46,380 bases of DNA, taken from the IMG/VR virus record IMGVR_UViG_3300032020_000013, positions 1-46,380 of that record. One strand, given 5' to 3'. Shown piece after piece: positions 1-46,380 of the stretch (its first letter is position 1; every line of letters begins with the position of its first letter). Under the pieces are notes generated by a model, which was not told the origin of the DNA, searched no databases, and saw only the letters and a program-made list of their open reading frames with translations. Position numbers and translations under genes: made by a program. This stretch comes from a virus.

Positions 1-239
1 GGGACGTGCCGATATCCGACTTTTGCGGAAACCGCTGGGAGTTCGCGGACGGCCTCCGGCTGTTCGACAATACGATCTATACGGCGGGGAAAATGATCGA
101 TCCCACCGCGCGATATTCCGACCCAGATTACACCAATACAGGCCTGACCGTCACTGGCCCGACGTCGGGCCAGTCGATCGCGACTCTGCGGACCGAGGCG
201 GCCATCTGCATTCATGGCATCCCGGCGACCACGACGACC
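1..239. repeat. Terminal overlap, left copy
   Basis: These 239 bases recur at 46142-46380. Only positions 111-112 differ (CG here, GC at 46252-46253). Reading across the joint restores one open frame, so this is the overlap of a circular assembly rather than two separate genes. Confidence 0.95.
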
Positions 240-416
240 GCCGGGACTGGTCCCTTCGATGGCGCAGGATTCTGGTGGACGGCAACGGATGAGCGCGTGG
301 CGGTCCGTGGCGGCTATTCCACCTACGGGGCGCAGTGCTCTGGGGCGCTCGGCCTGCACGGCGGCCCGGCCGTCGCCATCTGGTGCTTCGGCGCTCGCGC
401 GGTGCTCATTCCGTAA
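1..416 (+). CDS. C-terminal part of a C-type-lectin/FGE-like variable protein (DGR target)
   Basis: This is the end of the gene that starts at 45445; joined over the circle it has 370 codons. The part here carries GNRWEF, the counterpart of the GNVWEW motif of formylglycine-generating-enzyme and C-type-lectin variable domains, and ends in a segment resembling RGGS..G..AG.FAL.L..AP......GFRAV. Such proteins in phages are receptor-binding tip proteins whose end is rewritten by a diversity-generating retroelement. An internal ATG lies at 6 but is not the real start. The gene closes a run of fibre genes and precedes small tail genes. The fold assignment is by motif and the receptor role is inferred. 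Confidence 0.85.
   Translation, partial: DVPISDFCGNRWEFADGLRLFDNTIYTAGKMIDPTARYSDPDYTNTGLTVTGPTSGQSIATLRTEAAICIHGIPATTTTAGTGPFDGAGFWWTATDERVAVRGGYSTYGAQCSGALGLHGGPAVAIWCFGARAVLIP
306..413 (+). other. Probable DGR variable region (VR)
   Basis: Codons from 306 encode R-G-G, then a string of residues where known variable proteins have template-derived asparagines. Codons at 318, 321, 324, 336, 351, 357, 360, 369, 372, 375, 378 and 384 are all NNC (tcc, acc, tac, tgc, ggc, cac, ggc, gcc, gtc, gcc, atc, tgc). That is what adenine-directed mutagenesis of AAC codons leaves. Fixed residues between them (L, P, W, F-G-A-R) match the lectin-fold scaffold. The 5' boundary cannot be set without the template repeat, which is not in the window. 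Confidence 0.7.
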
Positions 417-422
417 TCTGCA

Positions 423-442
423 GGGCGGGTGGCAACCCGCCC
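423..442 (+). promoter_or_regulatory. DGR-type hairpin/cruciform downstream of the VR
   Basis: A perfect 8-bp stem, GGGCGGGT with ACCCGCCC, encloses the tetraloop GGCA and begins 7 bases after the stop codon. In the Bordetella phage DGR and relatives, a hairpin with an 8-bp stem and a 4-base GRNA loop just past the VR helps target recognition. GGCA fits GRNA. No T-run follows, so it is not a typical intrinsic terminator. Confidence 0.7.
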
Positions 443-558
443 CAGGGTCTCGCTGGTTTCTATTGGGGACGGCGCAGTCAAGGCGAATTGACTGATTGAG
501 GAGTGGATGAAGGACCGGGGGTCGTGAGCAAGATCACAAGTTGAGGGAGGAGACAATC

Positions 559-735
559 ATGCCACTCACCTACGATGACATTGTGTTGCGCGTTGGCCGA
601 CTGATGGTGGCTTTCTGGGAAGGTGAGAAGAACCAGACAGATCGTGCCGACAAGGCAGAGGCAGAGTTGGCAGCACTCAAGAAGCAACTTATTCCACCCA
701 ATGTTCTCGTGGAGAAACCCGATGCCGCTGTTTGA
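559..735 (+). CDS. Small coiled-coil protein after the variable protein
   Basis: The product has 58 residues. The start is the ATG after GGGAGGAGA rather than the frame opening at 541. A hydrophobic/amphipathic N-terminal half (IVLRVGRLMVAFW) is followed by a charged helix rich in Ala, Glu and Lys (about residues 30-48) that should form a coiled coil. Its stop overlaps the next start, so the two are probably translationally coupled. A role in folding or attaching the fibre is possible from position only; I do not recognise the family. Confidence 0.7.
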   Translation: MPLTYDDIVLRVGRLMVAFWEGEKNQTDRADKAEAELAALKKQLIPPNVLVEKPDAAV

Positions 736-1180
736 TGCTCCCAAAGCATTCATAGAAGACCTACGGCGATACGATCCGGCACTCCGATGCCGGTGGTCGG
801 ACGGGAGACGATCTTTCCTGATTGAACGGAAGGTGAGTCGGGGTCGTGCTTTCCCTCCTAGTGAATTCGGGGACCCCGATGAGTACCGAGCCGCCAGTGA
901 CGGGTATATGATCCTCATGGACGTGGAACGTGAATGCCTCGACAATCGCGTCTTCTTCACCCTTTGGCAATCCGACATTTGGCGTCAAGGTGGAGCTGAT
1001 GCTGTGAACGACCGAATTGACCGGGTACAGGCGGAGATTTTCCGGGAGAGTCGTGTTGCTTTCAACGACCGGAACCGACAGGAAGCGAAGGCGGCGTTCA
1101 GGTATATGAATTGCGTGAGGACGGTTCCTGAGAATGCCGCGCATACGGCTCCTCCTGGTGGTATGTCAATCATAGACTGA
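722..1180 (+). CDS. Unknown protein in the tail region
   Basis: The product has 152 residues, starting at an ATG that overlaps the previous gene's end by 14 bases. It is soluble and charged, with an early segment DAPKAFIEDLRRYDPALRCRW and a later EIFRESRVAFNDRNRQEAK helix. I see no signal peptide, membrane segment or catalytic motif. It sits between the variable protein and the adaptor-like gene, so a virion assembly role is plausible but unproven. Confidence 0.7.
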   Translation: MPLFDAPKAFIEDLRRYDPALRCRWSDGRRSFLIERKVSRGRAFPPSEFGDPDEYRAASDGYMILMDVERECLDNRVFFTLWQSDIWRQGGADAVNDRIDRVQAEIFRESRVAFNDRNRQEAKAAFRYMNCVRTVPENAAHTAPPGGMSIID

Positions 1181-1192
1181 AACGAGGCGAAC

Positions 1193-11291: not shown

Positions 11292-11669
11292 GTGGAACTC
11301 AAACCTGGAGCCCAGACTGACAAACTCTATGTGGACATGAAGACCGTCCTGCCCCTGATCGAACAGGCACGGCAGGAGGCCCTGGCGACGGTCGCCAGTC
11401 TTCCTTGCGTCATCACGAGCGGCCACGAAGGCCACAAAGGGGACCATATTCATTCGGATGCCAGTCTCCACTACTTGGAGAACTGCCCCACGGAAGAGGG
11501 TCTCGCCGTGGATATCCGGACGGGTGATTTCGTGGAGGTTTTCGCCACGACCCTGCGGTTACTCATCACCCAGAATTTCGGGCGGAACGCCGGGTTTGAT
11601 ATCGTGCCGGAACATGACCACCTGCATATTGAGAGAGATCCGAAAAAACGCCCTTTACGGGCGAGGTAG
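11292..11669 (+). CDS. Endolysin: LAS/M15-type peptidase
   Basis: The product has 125 residues from a GTG one base after the previous stop. The zinc-peptidase pattern is visible: ITSG..., S-D-A-S-L-H-Y, then G-L-A-V-D-I-R, and later E-H-D-H-L-H-I-E. These match the H...D...H ligands of D-Ala-D-Ala carboxypeptidase/endopeptidase-like LAS enzymes, which cut peptidoglycan cross-links. It has no signal peptide, so it needs the holin for release. It lies between two membrane proteins in a compact lysis cassette. Confidence 0.7.
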   Translation: MELKPGAQTDKLYVDMKTVLPLIEQARQEALATVASLPCVITSGHEGHKGDHIHSDASLHYLENCPTEEGLAVDIRTGDFVEVFATTLRLLITQNFGRNAGFDIVPEHDHLHIERDPKKRPLRAR

Positions 11670-11711: not shown

Positions 11712-12146
11712 ATGTTTAGACTAGTCTGGTTTGTTTCCCTAATGTTCATGCCGGGAGTTGCGTGGGCTGCGGAGAGTGCGAACCCTGTCCAAGACATCCT
11801 CACATCCGTCATGCAACTTGTAGCCTTGGTTCTGGCCGGTCTCGTCATCTGGGCGGTGAAACTCCTCATGGCGCGGTTCAAATTACAGATATCAGACAGT
11901 CAAGAGGAGATCTTGCGGAAGGGTGCGAAGGACGCTATCTACTTCGCCGAGGAATGGGCCGCCAAGAAATATGGCGCCGATAAGATCATCGGGAAAGGGA
12001 CCGAACAACTCACCGCGGCCACGACTTTCCTGCTGACCAAGATTCCTGGGTTGGATCAAAAGGCGGCCCAGGATGCGATACATGCGGCACTTGGTCAGGC
12101 CTTTGGGCTTGGCGCGAGCGGAACTACTGGCACACCTAGCGTATAA
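11712..12146 (+). CDS. Holin, LLH-type
   Basis: The product has 144 residues. The second of two adjacent ATGs is better spaced from AGGAGG. A signal-like N-terminus (LVWFVSLMFMPGVAWA) is followed by a strong membrane segment (MQLVALVLAGLVIWAVKLLM, about 35-55). A soluble helix with SQEEILRKGAKDAIYFAEEW and a repeat-rich tail with AAQDAIHAALGQ follow. This order matches the phage LLH holin family, where the soluble part is a conserved EA..A..YAE.. helix. It would set lysis timing in the inner membrane. Confidence 0.7.
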   Translation: MFRLVWFVSLMFMPGVAWAAESANPVQDILTSVMQLVALVLAGLVIWAVKLLMARFKLQISDSQEEILRKGAKDAIYFAEEWAAKKYGADKIIGKGTEQLTAATTFLLTKIPGLDQKAAQDAIHAALGQAFGLGASGTTGTPSV

Positions 12147-12203
12147 TCTTGCCCGGACCGGTTCGGATGAGGGCCGGCCCGGAGTCGCCCCAAGGGAGGA
12201 GCC

Positions 12204-12308
12204 ATGCGCTGGTACTGGTGGGTTATCATCGCTCTCGGTGTGACCGTGGGGGGATTCACCGTTTACTCTATCCAGGTTTTGAGGGACATCTTCCGTCGCT
12301 TGGGATGA
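12204..12308 (+). CDS. 34-residue membrane protein in the lysis cassette
   Basis: The ATG follows AAGGGAGGAGCC, a strong Shine-Dalgarno. The product is RWYWWVIIALGVTVGGFTVY plus a basic tail (LRDIFRRLG): one membrane span with N-out/C-in charge. It lies between holin and spanins, so an antiholin or second holin is possible. A 10-base palindrome GGGCCGGCCC sits just upstream at 12171. Confidence 0.6.
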   Translation: MRWYWWVIIALGVTVGGFTVYSIQVLRDIFRRLG

Positions 12309-12322
12309 TAGGAGATAATCCC

Positions 12323-12580
12323 ATGTGGGGATGGTTGGCTGCCATAGTCAAGGGATTCGCCGAGGCATTTTTCGGCTGGTGGCGTGAGAAGGAACGGGAC
12401 CGCCTCTTGGTGAAAGAAACTGAGGAACGCCTGCAACTGATTGAATCCGAGGCCGCCCGCACGAAAGAGGAGAAGATTCGTCATGTCCAGAATGCGATAC
12501 GCAACGAGCCTGGTCCTGTTGTTCCTGATCTTTCTGGCTTGCGCTCACCAGGTCCCCCTGGCCCCGGTCCGCCTGCCTGA
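12323..12580 (+). CDS. i-spanin-like (Rz-like) protein
   Basis: The product has 85 residues. A hydrophobic N-terminal ~20 residues (WGWLAAIVKGFAEAFFGWW) precedes a highly charged helix (EKERDRLLVKETEERLQLIES) and a proline-rich end. The frame fully contains the start of a lipoprotein gene in another frame, the classic nested Rz/Rz1 layout. Inner-membrane spanins join outer-membrane lipoproteins to fuse the membranes at lysis. The hydrophobic part carries one Lys, so anchoring is less certain than in typical Rz. Confidence 0.55.
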   Translation: MWGWLAAIVKGFAEAFFGWWREKERDRLLVKETEERLQLIESEAARTKEEKIRHVQNAIRNEPGPVVPDLSGLRSPGPPGPGPPA

Positions 12581-12812
12581 GCCCGCACTACCTTATTGCC
12601 TGAATGAAGAGAAGCCATCCGAGGGCCAGGTGGTGGGGACCTATGTGTTCAACACGAAATGGGCGCTGGACAACATCATGGAGCCGTTTTCCAGCGGCAC
12701 GCATGCTGGCCATCTGGCAGCAGTTGAAGCTGGCTTGAAGTGTGGCTCGGCCATCGGCAAGGCCCTGCGTGAGGCCATCGGGATCATTCGGACGTTTAAC
12801 TCGCCCAAATAG
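12483..12812 (+). CDS. o-spanin-like (Rz1-like) lipoprotein, nested start
   Basis: The product has 109 residues. A signal peptide (TSLVLLFLIFLAC) ends in the lipobox F-L-A-C with Cys20 as the lipidated residue, followed by proline-rich AHQVPLAPVRLPEPALP as in Rz1 proteins. The gene begins inside the previous frame (+1 shift) and continues 232 bases past it. It is longer than usual Rz1, with a C-terminal part (HLAAVEAGLKCGSAIGKALREA) of unknown role. Confidence 0.65.
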   Translation: MSRMRYATSLVLLFLIFLACAHQVPLAPVRLPEPALPYCLNEEKPSEGQVVGTYVFNTKWALDNIMEPFSSGTHAGHLAAVEAGLKCGSAIGKALREAIGIIRTFNSPK

Positions 12813-12942
12813 GCCGCTGACGCGCTTGGAACCCCTTCCTTGCCATATCTCTGCTCAACCCATACCAGGATGCCTGTTCTGCGACCGGACATCTAGTATC
12901 GGATAGGTCCTGATTCCCCCCCAGAATAATTATAATTCCCCC

Positions 12943-25662: not shown

Positions 25663-26165
25663 GGTGTCTCCTTTGTCACTGGTCTCGTCGCATATCCGAC
25701 GTATCCCTGGATAAGCCCATGATCCGCAAAAGACCACGATGTTTCAGAGTCGTTTGGCAAGATAACGTGATCCATGCACGGAATTCTCATCATATCCCCG
25801 AGCTTGACCAATTCTTCCGTCAAGGCTCTATCACCTGCCGATGGCATCTCCGATCCCGACGGATGGTTATGCACGAGGATGAATGCGGCCGCGGCCGATA
25901 GGATGCAGCCACGAAAGACCTTGGCGGGATAGATTGCTGCATCAGTCGGGCCACCTTCGCTGATGCGGTACAGTCCGAGGATCCGGTTGTCGCCCGCCAC
26001 CATGACAATCCAGCAGGATTCGTCAATCTGACCATCAAAGATCCTAGCCGAGCGAAACAAAGTCGCAACATCTTTCGAGGATGTGATCTTATTACCTATC
26101 CAGGACTGTTCATCGCCAATGGGCAAGCAACGGTAAGTGACTTCCATTTCTCTGACGAATCTCAT
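25659..26165 (-). CDS. RadC-like JAMM domain protein, copy 1
   Basis: The product has 168 residues behind GGAGGAGACGCC. The full metal motif H99-N-H101-P-S-G-x4-S109-x2-D112 is present, with E49 (DES) as the likely acid. The RadC-family feature P-A-K-V-F-R-G-C-I-L precedes it. These are JAB/MPN-fold proteins, presumed metallo-hydrolases. In mobile elements RadC relatives often sit with anti-restriction or DNA-processing genes, but their reaction is unsettled. It is strongly related to the product of 26628-27110. Confidence 0.85.
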   Translation of the reverse strand: MRFVREMEVTYRCLPIGDEQSWIGNKITSSKDVATLFRSARIFDGQIDESCWIVMVAGDNRILGLYRISEGGPTDAAIYPAKVFRGCILSAAAAFILVHNHPSGSEMPSAGDRALTEELVKLGDMMRIPCMDHVILPNDSETSWSFADHGLIQGYVGYATRPVTKETP

Positions 26166-26627: not shown

Positions 26628-27110
26628 CTACTTTCTGCGCCGGTATTCCTCAATCAAACCGTGATCGGCAAACGACCAGTGCGCCTGGTTTCCAAGAATT
26701 ATATGGTCAACGCAGGGAATCCGGATATAGTCCCCAGCCCGGACCAACTCCTCAGTGACGCCTCGATCTGCCGCTGAGGGGTTTATCTCGCCGGATGGGT
26801 GATTGTGGACGAGGATCACAGCAGCAGCATTGACGAGGACGGCGCCGCGAAAGACCTTCGCCGGATAGACGCCGGCATCAGTCGGCCCCCCTTCTGAGAT
26901 CCGGTAGATGGCCAGCAGGCGGTTGTCTCCATTGACATAGATGGCCCAGCAGGATTCGTCAATTGCGTCGCCAATCACGGGCACCATAAGCGTGGCAATC
27001 TCCCGCGAGCAGGTGATCCGCACTTTACCTTGTCCGGTCGGGCGCGGATCGCCTGCCTCGATCTTCGCGTATCCTGGGACGAGTTCTCGGACCTTCATCA
27101 CGGGGGTCAT
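26628..27110 (-). CDS. RadC-like JAMM domain protein, copy 2
   Basis: The product has 160 residues behind AAGGAGACAAC. The JAMM motif is H102-N-H104-P-S-G-x4-S112-x2-D115 with E52. It shares Y-R-I-S-E-G-G-P-T-D-A, Y-P-A-K-V-F-R-G and W-S-F-A-D-H-G-L-I with copy 1, while the N-terminal 45 residues differ. Divergence of the front halves suggests two partners or substrates. Confidence 0.85.
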   Translation of the reverse strand: MTPVMKVRELVPGYAKIEAGDPRPTGQGKVRITCSREIATLMVPVIGDAIDESCWAIYVNGDNRLLAIYRISEGGPTDAGVYPAKVFRGAVLVNAAAVILVHNHPSGEINPSAADRGVTEELVRAGDYIRIPCVDHIILGNQAHWSFADHGLIEEYRRRK

Positions 27111-28081: not shown

Positions 28082-28687
28082 ATGCCACGAATTCGAACGA
28101 TCAAACCTGAAGCTCCCCAGCATCGCAAGGTCGGCAGGTTAAGTGACCGGCAGTTCCGGATCTGGGCAACGTGTATCACCCAAGCCGATGATGAGGGTCG
28201 TCTGGTGTGCGATCCTGAACAAGTGCGGGTCTGGGCGTTCGCCTACCATCCGGATGTTACCACGGAAATCGTGGAGGACGCGATCCAGGCAATCGCCCAA
28301 ACCGGGCTAATGAAGTTATATGAGGTTGATTTTATCCGATATGTCTGGTTCCCATCTTGGCGCGATCACCAGCGTATAAGCCACCCAACCCCGTCGAAAC
28401 TGCCTGCGCCTCCGGAGGATTCCGGAGGATTCCAGAACCTTCCACACGGAGACTCCGGAGGACTCCACAAGGAGACTCCACACGGATTGGATCGGAAGGG
28501 ATTGGAAGGGATAGGATCGGAAGGAGGAAAGGAAGCCTCCGGAGATTTCCAGAAGATTCCGGAGAAAACAACAAAGGAGCCATCGCCGGCCAGCTCTCCC
28601 GATGGGAGCGCCGGCGCTGGGGAACTACAAAACACGATAGAAAGGGTAGCGAATAAGATGGGATTCAACCGACAAAAAAACTCTTGA
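28082..28687 (+). CDS. Replication-organiser-like phage protein
   Basis: The product has 201 residues. The N-terminal ~95 residues carry RIRTIKPEAPQHRKVGRLSD, IWATCITQADDEGRLVCDPEQVR and YVWFPSWRDHQRISHP. This is the conserved front of phage DnaD/replisome-organiser type proteins that start DNA replication with host helicase. The middle (95-160) is low-complexity Pro/Gly/Asp encoded by TCCGGAGGA-rich repeats. The C-terminal ~25 residues form a helix. Repeats just upstream could be its binding sites. It is the only initiator candidate in the genome. Confidence 0.7.
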   Translation: MPRIRTIKPEAPQHRKVGRLSDRQFRIWATCITQADDEGRLVCDPEQVRVWAFAYHPDVTTEIVEDAIQAIAQTGLMKLYEVDFIRYVWFPSWRDHQRISHPTPSKLPAPPEDSGGFQNLPHGDSGGLHKETPHGLDRKGLEGIGSEGGKEASGDFQKIPEKTTKEPSPASSPDGSAGAGELQNTIERVANKMGFNRQKNS

Positions 28688-39725: not shown

Positions 39726-40742
39726 ATGCCAGTAGGATTCACGAACCTCACAGGACAAGTGCAGGGGATGATTGCCCGGGGGTATCCCGACATCGGGCAA
39801 ACCTACTATCTCATCGACAGCAACTACCGGACGGCGGCTCAGGGATGGAGTCGGTCGGACAAAACCGGACCCCTCGATCTGTTCTCCGAGCGAAGCAGGG
39901 GCAGTTCACCGGGCTATGTCATCCGCACCGGGGACTACGCCAGTGATAGCCTGGCGATCCAGGCGGCCATTGATGCCATGGTGGACTACCGAGGCGATAC
40001 CCTATATTTCACCCCGGGGGCGTACAGTCTCGCCACGGTAATCACCCAGAACGTCCACGACTCGCGCTGGGTGGGGAGTCCGGTATCCCACCCGGTCGAA
40101 TCCCGCGCCACCGTCACGGCGGCAGTCGCGGCGGCGGTCAATGTGACCGCTATCAACCGTTTCGAGATGGCCTTCATGGTGTGGCTACCTCTGACAGCCA
40201 GTCACATCTTCGCCGTGGATACCGGCGCGCCGTACATCCACTTTCACCATTTCAAGTACAGCACCATCGGTGTGGCAGCGAACACCGCCACCCAGTTCAT
40301 GCTGGCCGCTGGCACGATGAACAACAGCGTCTTCGAGCAGTTCTACCTGCTTACCGACGCTGGCCAAGGACCGATGATCGAACTCGACGGGACCGTGACC
40401 GGGCTCATCATCAAGGACTTTGAGCACATGCACACTGTCGGGACCCTGGACATCGCCCTGCTCGATGTGGATGGCGCAGGGTCAACTTGCATCAAGATCG
40501 GGCCAGGCCATGGACAGATCGGCGGGGCGGCGGGTGTTGTCACTAGCCTCTTCGATCACGTGGACATGACCAACAACTCGACGAATATCAGCGTGGTTAA
40601 GTTCACTGGGTCGGTCGGATACTGCACAAATGCGACGCTCTGCCCAGCAGCAGGCAACGCAGTTGAAGCGGACTACGTTGACTCGTGGATTGCCACCGTT
40701 GGTGGTGGTGCTGGCGGCGCGTTGTACATTGGGACATCTTAG
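39726..40742 (+). CDS. Beta-helix protein (tailspike or decoration)
   Basis: The product has 338 residues from the ATG behind AAGGAGAACACC. It has a right-handed beta-helix look: YASDSLAIQAAIDAMVDYRGDTLYFTPGAYSLATV, the classic pectate-lyase entrance motif, then repeated strands (FHHFKYSTIGV; SVFEQFYLLTD; LIIKDFEHMHTV). Such proteins bind or cut sugar on the host surface. No clear catalytic pair is identified. Confidence 0.6.
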   Translation: MPVGFTNLTGQVQGMIARGYPDIGQTYYLIDSNYRTAAQGWSRSDKTGPLDLFSERSRGSSPGYVIRTGDYASDSLAIQAAIDAMVDYRGDTLYFTPGAYSLATVITQNVHDSRWVGSPVSHPVESRATVTAAVAAAVNVTAINRFEMAFMVWLPLTASHIFAVDTGAPYIHFHHFKYSTIGVAANTATQFMLAAGTMNNSVFEQFYLLTDAGQGPMIELDGTVTGLIIKDFEHMHTVGTLDIALLDVDGAGSTCIKIGPGHGQIGGAAGVVTSLFDHVDMTNNSTNISVVKFTGSVGYCTNATLCPAAGNAVEADYVDSWIATVGGGAGGALYIGTS

Positions 40743-40755
40743 AACCTCTACTCCG

Positions 40756-40779
40756 GGGGAGGGCGGCTTCGCCCTCCCC
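40756..40779 (+). promoter_or_regulatory. 10-bp hairpin between beta-helix and methyltransferase genes
   Basis: GGGGAGGGCG-GCTT-CGCCCTCCCC, perfect. Only TTGG follows, so termination would be weak. It is probably an mRNA boundary or partial terminator. Confidence 0.5.
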
Positions 40780-45227: not shown

Positions 45228-45452
45228 ATGAAAATAACAGTTGCGTGGGATGGTTCCCTTTTGCGGGCGAACGGAGTGGCGATTCTCGACGGGGAGAGAT
45301 GGCGCGGGGAACGCGTCGTGGTTGGGCTCCAGATTGACCCAGACGGGGAGCCCTCCTACCTAATCAATCCTGACAGTGCTTGTCAGACCACAGCGACGAT
45401 TGCGATTCCCGTAAACGGCGAGCTGGGTTTGGCCGAGGTGATCTATGCCTGA
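45228..45452 (+). CDS. Small beta protein next to the variable protein
   Basis: The product has 74 residues behind TAGGAG. All-beta look (VAWDGSLLRANGVAILDGE; VVGLQIDPDGEPSYLIN). It overlaps the start of the variable-protein gene by 8 bases and may be coupled to it as a chaperone or adaptor. Confidence 0.6.
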   Translation: MKITVAWDGSLLRANGVAILDGERWRGERVVVGLQIDPDGEPSYLINPDSACQTTATIAIPVNGELGLAEVIYA

Positions 45453-46380
45453 AACCGTTAGCACCTTCGCGACGCGCAAGCGATTTGAACTCTCGCCGGG
45501 GCCGTTGTGCCGATTCGCTGATCCCGAGGGGACGGTCAGTTGGATGCGGTGGATCCCGCCCTTCCAGGCCCGGCGTGCCGTGACCGCGGCCGCCGCGCTG
45601 GCGACCCCCAGCGGCACTATCGGGGATTGGTTCCATCCGATCCTGACGCCGGCGGGCCTGGTTGAGACCACCGATTTCATCACTCACGACATGGGCGGAT
45701 TCTGGATCGACCAGTACCTGTGCAGCAGCCGCGACGCCAGCGACGCAAGCATGGGCACCCTCGCGGATGGCGGCGCGAACAAGATCGCCTACCACAGTCA
45801 GCGCGGCGTGGCCCCACGGGTGACCCAGGCGATCGCGCATTATAAGACGTACCTCGTCGCCCGCTTCGCCTCTGGGGCAGGGTTCGTCCGGGGCGACGGC
45901 CCCCAGGTGGCGGCCGCCTACTGGGCCACGAAGGGCGGCCTGTGCACCGACGCCCACTGGTTCGAGGTCTACGTCTGGACGAGGATCAACCGCATTCTGT
46001 TGAGGGGCAACACTGTGGGCTACGACGGCGTGAATCCCAAGACCCCACAGTACCACGGCGACACGTCAGAGCGGGGCCAGCAGGATACCGCGCACCCGCT
46101 GGCCTATGGACTGAGCGTCGCCGGCGGCGGGCCCCCGAGTTGGGACGTGCCGATATCCGACTTTTGCGGAAACCGCTGGGAGTTCGCGGACGGCCTCCGG
46201 CTGTTCGACAATACGATCTATACGGCGGGGAAAATGATCGATCCCACCGCGGCATATTCCGACCCAGATTACACCAATACAGGCCTGACCGTCACTGGCC
46301 CGACGTCGGGCCAGTCGATCGCGACTCTGCGGACCGAGGCGGCCATCTGCATTCATGGCATCCCGGCGACCACGACGACC
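45445..46380 (+). CDS. Variable lectin-fold protein, N-terminal part (continues at 1-416)
   Basis: From the ATG at 45445 to the window end lie 312 codons; joined with 240-416 the protein has 370. The N-terminal ~75 residues form an attachment domain. From about 80 the FGE/C-type-lectin fold begins: H-D-M-G-G-F-W-I-D-Q-Y, then W-F-E-V-Y-V-W-T-R, and near 235 D-F-C-G-N-R-W-E-F. This enzyme-derived fold is used for binding, not catalysis, in phage variable proteins. Codon 270 is GCA (Ala) here but CGA (Arg) in the left copy. The gene follows the fibre genes, fitting a receptor-binding tip. Confidence 0.85.
   Translation, partial: MPETVSTFATRKRFELSPGPLCRFADPEGTVSWMRWIPPFQARRAVTAAAALATPSGTIGDWFHPILTPAGLVETTDFITHDMGGFWIDQYLCSSRDASDASMGTLADGGANKIAYHSQRGVAPRVTQAIAHYKTYLVARFASGAGFVRGDGPQVAAAYWATKGGLCTDAHWFEVYVWTRINRILLRGNTVGYDGVNPKTPQYHGDTSERGQQDTAHPLAYGLSVAGGGPPSWDVPISDFCGNRWEFADGLRLFDNTIYTAGKMIDPTAAYSDPDYTNTGLTVTGPTSGQSIATLRTEAAICIHGIPATTTT
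46142..46380. repeat. Terminal overlap, right copy
   Basis: Same 239 bases as 1-239 with GC instead of CG at 46252-46253. Marks the circular closure; genome length about 46,141 bases. Confidence 0.95.

Follow-up and report, generated by a model that had tools for sequence, protein, structure and literature searches.

How does a phage genome come to hold what looks like the target of a diversity-generating retroelement (DGR) with no reverse transcriptase (RT) to accompany it, and is such a target stranded or rewritten by machinery on another replicon? The question is raised by IMG/VR record IMGVR_UViG_3300032020_000013, analyzed here over its full 46,380 nt (hereafter the window), which is equivalent to a 46,141-bp circle once the overlapping ends are joined. 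An initial annotation had placed a DGR target at the end of a tip gene that runs across the contig ends, and had noted that the circle lacked an RT, an Avd-like gene, and a template copy.

The tip gene and its cassette-bearing relatives

The phage includes genes for terminase, portal, capsid, adaptor, and integrase. The ends of the window do join as a circle as first proposed, and the tip gene is completed as described, its reading frame continuing through the end overlap, so that the complete gene (45445-46380 joined to 240-416) encodes a product of 370 amino acids (Table 1). Elsewhere in the circle lie a 95-nt direct repeat with 74% identity (25900-25994 and 26836-26930, 936 nt apart), which may be a duplicated part of a gene, a small region of clustered short imperfect repeats of the TCCGGAGGA/TTCCAGA type (28408-28563), and a perfect 10-bp GC-rich hairpin with a GCTT loop (40756-40779), possibly a terminator, 3' of an ORF ending at 40742.

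Table 1 Features of the tip gene region and contig ends in the window.
Feature	Coordinates	Strand	Remarks
Small ORF 5' of tip gene	45228-45452	+	34% identical to the ORF directly preceding the tip gene of L001
Tip (DGR variable protein) gene, 5' part	45445-46380	+	Starts with ATG at 45445 and extends past the right end
Tip gene, 3' part	1-416	+	Positions 1-239 duplicate the right end; stop codon TAA at 414-416
End overlap	46142-46380 = 1-239		Exact for 113-239 = 46254-46380 (127 nt); closes the circle
Variable repeat (VR)	300-404	+	Aligns with template repeats of five relatives
IMH-like VR 3' end and following bases	393-420	+	Identical to L001 at 25 of 28 nt
Target hairpin	423-442	+	8-bp GC-rich stem, GGCA (GRNA) loop
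Site of Avd-TR-RT in relatives	443-1192	+	Here holds a short spacer plus small ORFs; the head-tail adaptor gene follows at 1193

A Pfam search assigned no family to the tip protein, and a protein search of GenBank phages returned 0 matches. In the PDB, the profile of the tip family matched 5VF4 only (E 7e-7), the structure of TaqVP, which is a DGR variable protein of C-type-lectin type from a Thermus aquaticus prophage (PMC6328139), and a weak second match to the same structure superposes the VR of the tip family on that of TaqVP. Based on its family, the tip gene product is probably a receptor-binding tail-tip protein. An AlphaFold model of the tip, built with six relatives, was discarded (pLDDT 36).

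Among viral contigs, the tip protein has one close relative only, that of IMG/VR contig 3300041955_001933 (L001; 74% amino acid identity), and further, more distant relatives came from a profile search. In L001, tip gene, hairpin, Avd, template repeat (TR), and RT follow in direct succession: the Avd scores 98.7 bits against NF033474 (cut-off 80), the TR lies at about 11541-11650, and the RT, with a YMDD motif, spans 11804-12850 and matches PF00078 (E 4e-19) and PHROG 1423 (E 1e-137). Across the family, whose members L001, L003/L012, L011, L013, L015, and L018 are 53-74% identical to the window tip, Avd is found in six relatives, five of which also have TR and RT. Besides L001, these five comprise L003/L012, L011, L013, and L018, a Deltaproteobacteria MAG; in L015, the contig ends after Avd. 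The compact tip-to-Avd order of L001, L011, L012, and L013 is not seen in L015 and L018, where ~1 kb separates the target gene from Avd (L015:11239-12304, L018:11230-12303). Two further contigs (L014 and L017) end inside the tip gene, while four of the seven stretches returned by the first DNA pattern scan (L004, L007, L008, and L009) had no tip gene and were rejected as chance matches. A distant and atypical relative, split into two overlapping ORFs, lies on a 7.1-kb fragment with Ns (L016:277-1571); its VR pattern is unlike the others, neither Avd nor RT occurs in the 5.5 kb 3' of its tip gene, and it may represent a second orphan target.

The variable repeat was written from an AAC-rich template

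We compared a 96-position core of the window VR (306-401) with the TRs of five relatives. At 19 of these positions all five TRs have an A, and at 48 they share an identical non-A base. The window VR is changed at 14 of the 19 shared template adenines and at 2 of the 48 other positions (Fisher p 1e-8). No other VR in the set has so high a proportion of altered template adenines: the relatives' own VRs are changed at 8-13 and 0-1 of these positions, respectively, and the VR of L015, whose own TR is absent from the set, at 13 and 3. Both exceptions in the window alter a codon, one from Cys to Ser (TGC to TCC, 318-320), which takes away one of two cysteines present in all five TRs, and one from Pro to Ser (339-341). 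When aligned over 104 positions to the TR of L001, the window VR departs from it at 17 adenines and at 10 other positions (p 3e-8), and under a score that favours template adenines it reaches 72.0 against this TR and 56.0 against the L001 VR, as expected if like templates wrote both VRs.

The initial annotation had drawn attention to NNC codons at the end of the gene. Taken alone, NNC richness was discarded as evidence of a DGR, since third-position C is common throughout the tip gene (47% of all its codons and 56% of the final 36). The codon argument does stand when set against a template: wherever the L001 TR has an AAC or AAT codon, the window has NNC or NNT, respectively, and the third base is constant. 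The same third-position bias could be invoked for an ordinary lectin-fold tip that resembles a DGR target, in its NNC codons and hairpin, by chance. However, such a resemblance is for practical purposes refuted by the adenine-directed differences from five templates (p 1e-8), L001 has a matching IMH-like end and hairpin, and all six relatives named above carry Avd, five of them along with TR and RT, so that we give this explanation almost no credence. Instead, the alignments show past mutagenic retrohoming, with an AAC-rich template as the source of the window VR.

Past the VR, the 8-bp stem with GGCA loop described earlier is indeed present (GGGCGGGT-GGCA-ACCCGCCC), and L001 has its own hairpin directly downstream of the tip gene (CGGGCGGGC-GATA-GCCCGCCCG). 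The base pair that closes the loop, C-G in L001, is T-A in the window; pairing was therefore kept through change on both sides, which counts as modest, single-pair support for the hairpin. Similar hairpins occur in L015 (GAGA loop) and L018 (GAAA loop). According to the published rule for DGR targets, a GC-rich stem of 7-10 bp with a GRNA loop lies 4-34 bp after the VR (PMC3240598), and the window VR end and hairpin agree with it. Six perfect stems of at least 8 bp with a 4-nt loop exist in the whole circle, two of them with a GRNA loop on the plus strand. No T run is found 3' of the window hairpin, which makes a plain terminator less likely. A scan of viral contigs for strain variants with the IMH-like end returned L001 only. 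Judging from these sequence features, the target signals of the window still look competent.

The missing cassette

None of the three components of a complete DGR (DGR-type RT, TR, and Avd) is found in the window, and the absences first reported withstood dedicated searches. For the RT, there was no PF00078 match in the window, while the identical search finds the RT of L001, and in the circle tblastn found none and a profile of the five relatives' DGR RTs gave a best E of 1.6. For Avd, PF05635 had no match in the circle and tblastn gave nothing beyond the VR itself, and for the TR, the top TR-like score in the circle was 25, compared with 94-99 for real pairs. The interval in which the relatives carry Avd, TR, and RT shows no cassette trace, and because the contig is uninterrupted 3' of the target, this absence is independent of the circle junction. 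At the same time, the gene has two marks of a target, namely adenine-directed VR differences and a GRNA hairpin after the VR. The window gene is thus, as had been claimed, a genuine DGR target, and it lacks its cassette.

Alternatively, the cassette could be in the phage and not in the contig, if the contig ends lay in two copies of the tip gene or in a mixed population and the circle were not real. Phages with two DGR targets do exist (PMC10743442; PMC8008677), both contig ends fall inside the tip gene, and the two 239-nt overlap copies differ at two bases (CG at 111-112, GC at 46252-46253). This difference, which specifies an Arg or Ala codon of the tip gene outside the VR, is probably a read variant or error. 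A length of 127 nt is the usual top k-mer of a common metagenome assembler, and we infer that such an assembler produced the contig; at k=127, the exact overlap of 127 nt has the length expected for a closed loop. Overlaps of k-mer length in circular phage assemblies have been described as technical (PMC8008677). Just 110 matching nt precede the two differences, i.e., less than the k-mer, and the 112 nt ahead of the exact overlap are most readily explained as a dead-end variant that enters the closed loop, which fits better than a second gene copy. In the relatives, moreover, the cassette is 3' of the target, where the window is continuous. Overall, a cassette hidden by the assembly appears improbable.

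Stranded or rewritten in trans

The resemblance between the window phage and L001 is limited to the tip gene, its small upstream neighbour ORF, and a protein of 145 aa. Capsid, portal, and adaptor are related to those of podovirus ctLwi270 (MW202554), which has no RT annotated, and adaptor and capsid searches of viral contigs recovered no close backbone relatives. By sequence comparison, the backbone is podovirus-like and unrelated to that of L001. Since the likeness to L001 is nearly confined to the tip, while capsid, portal, and adaptor resemble ctLwi270, the tip module has probably moved between unrelated backbones. The module would have been exchanged between phages without the cassette, or the cassette would have been deleted later, in either case not long ago; with one close relative only, the comparison does not give a direction between loss and transfer without the cassette.

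We favour, with a probability of roughly 0.6, a target that was recently stranded and is now fixed, over both rewriting in trans and a hidden cassette. The phage would then hold one fixed tip variant, and further change would come only via ordinary mutation, recombination, or chance rewriting by a compatible DGR that happened to occupy the same cell. A template search of the kind proposed at the outset, covering viral contigs and 395 genomes from a single bacterial phylum, found no TR fitting the window VR, and this absence leans towards the stranded reading. In the prokaryote collection, one scan, by tip-protein patterns, yielded L018 only.

No decay is seen in the hairpin stem or at the non-adenine positions of the VR, a state compatible both with recent loss and with service in trans. 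In the latter case, RT, Avd, and TR RNA would be supplied by a DGR located elsewhere, be it in a prophage, on the host chromosome, or in a phage infecting the same cell, and donor cDNA would enter the window VR via the intact IMH-like end and hairpin. The integrity of these signals and the extent of adenine change in the VR, the maximum of the set, with hardly any change at other positions (2 of 48), are consistent with such a supply. Assays in which retrohoming starts from a donor plasmid are established: the avd-TR-RT region of Bordetella phage BPP-1 works from such a plasmid, and IMH and hairpin suffice to make another gene a target (PMC3240598). In Pseudogulbenkiania, distal targets are reported to be served by one remaining RT (PMC3521204). 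Against this, no fitting TR was recovered in the searches above, and the best template among the loci examined, the TR of L001, carries 8 non-adenine mismatches in 96. We therefore regard rewriting in trans as possible but unlikely, and it is slightly more doubtful that the phage keeps a fully competent DGR target while its diversification is left to a DGR on another replicon.

For the phage, a host-recognition tip would be either frozen or reliant on another element for its variation. The circle, in which every other part of a target is present, together with cassette-bearing relatives, makes it testable whether hypermutation was lost and the tip frozen, or whether machinery is shared between replicons. 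In the literature covered, which included few subscription papers, we came across no account of a complete phage genome that keeps an intact target yet lacks an RT. DGR surveys start from the reverse transcriptase and so miss targets that lack one, and Roux et al. state that remote targets would escape their DGR search (PMC8144416).

Compared with known systems, the window is closest to the DGRs of the L001 family, with which it shares a homologous tip, a C-terminal VR, and an identical template codon pattern, as well as, for L001, the IMH-like end and GRNA hairpin; it differs from them in its backbone and in being without Avd, TR, and RT. In the BPP-1 DGR (PMC3240598), the tail-tip gene (Mtd) likewise has its VR at the 3' end, followed by a GC-rich hairpin with a GRNA loop, but avd, TR, and brt adjoin the target there and are absent here. 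TaqVP, whose VR can be superposed on that of the tip family, is part of a complete DGR and only distantly homologous to the window tip. Finally, there are distal DGR targets in Pseudogulbenkiania sp. NH8B, with a nearby RT that has decayed (PMC3521204), and whereas a second RT on the same chromosome serves these targets and the window is a phage genome without RT, the two systems are alike in that their targets stand apart from a working RT.
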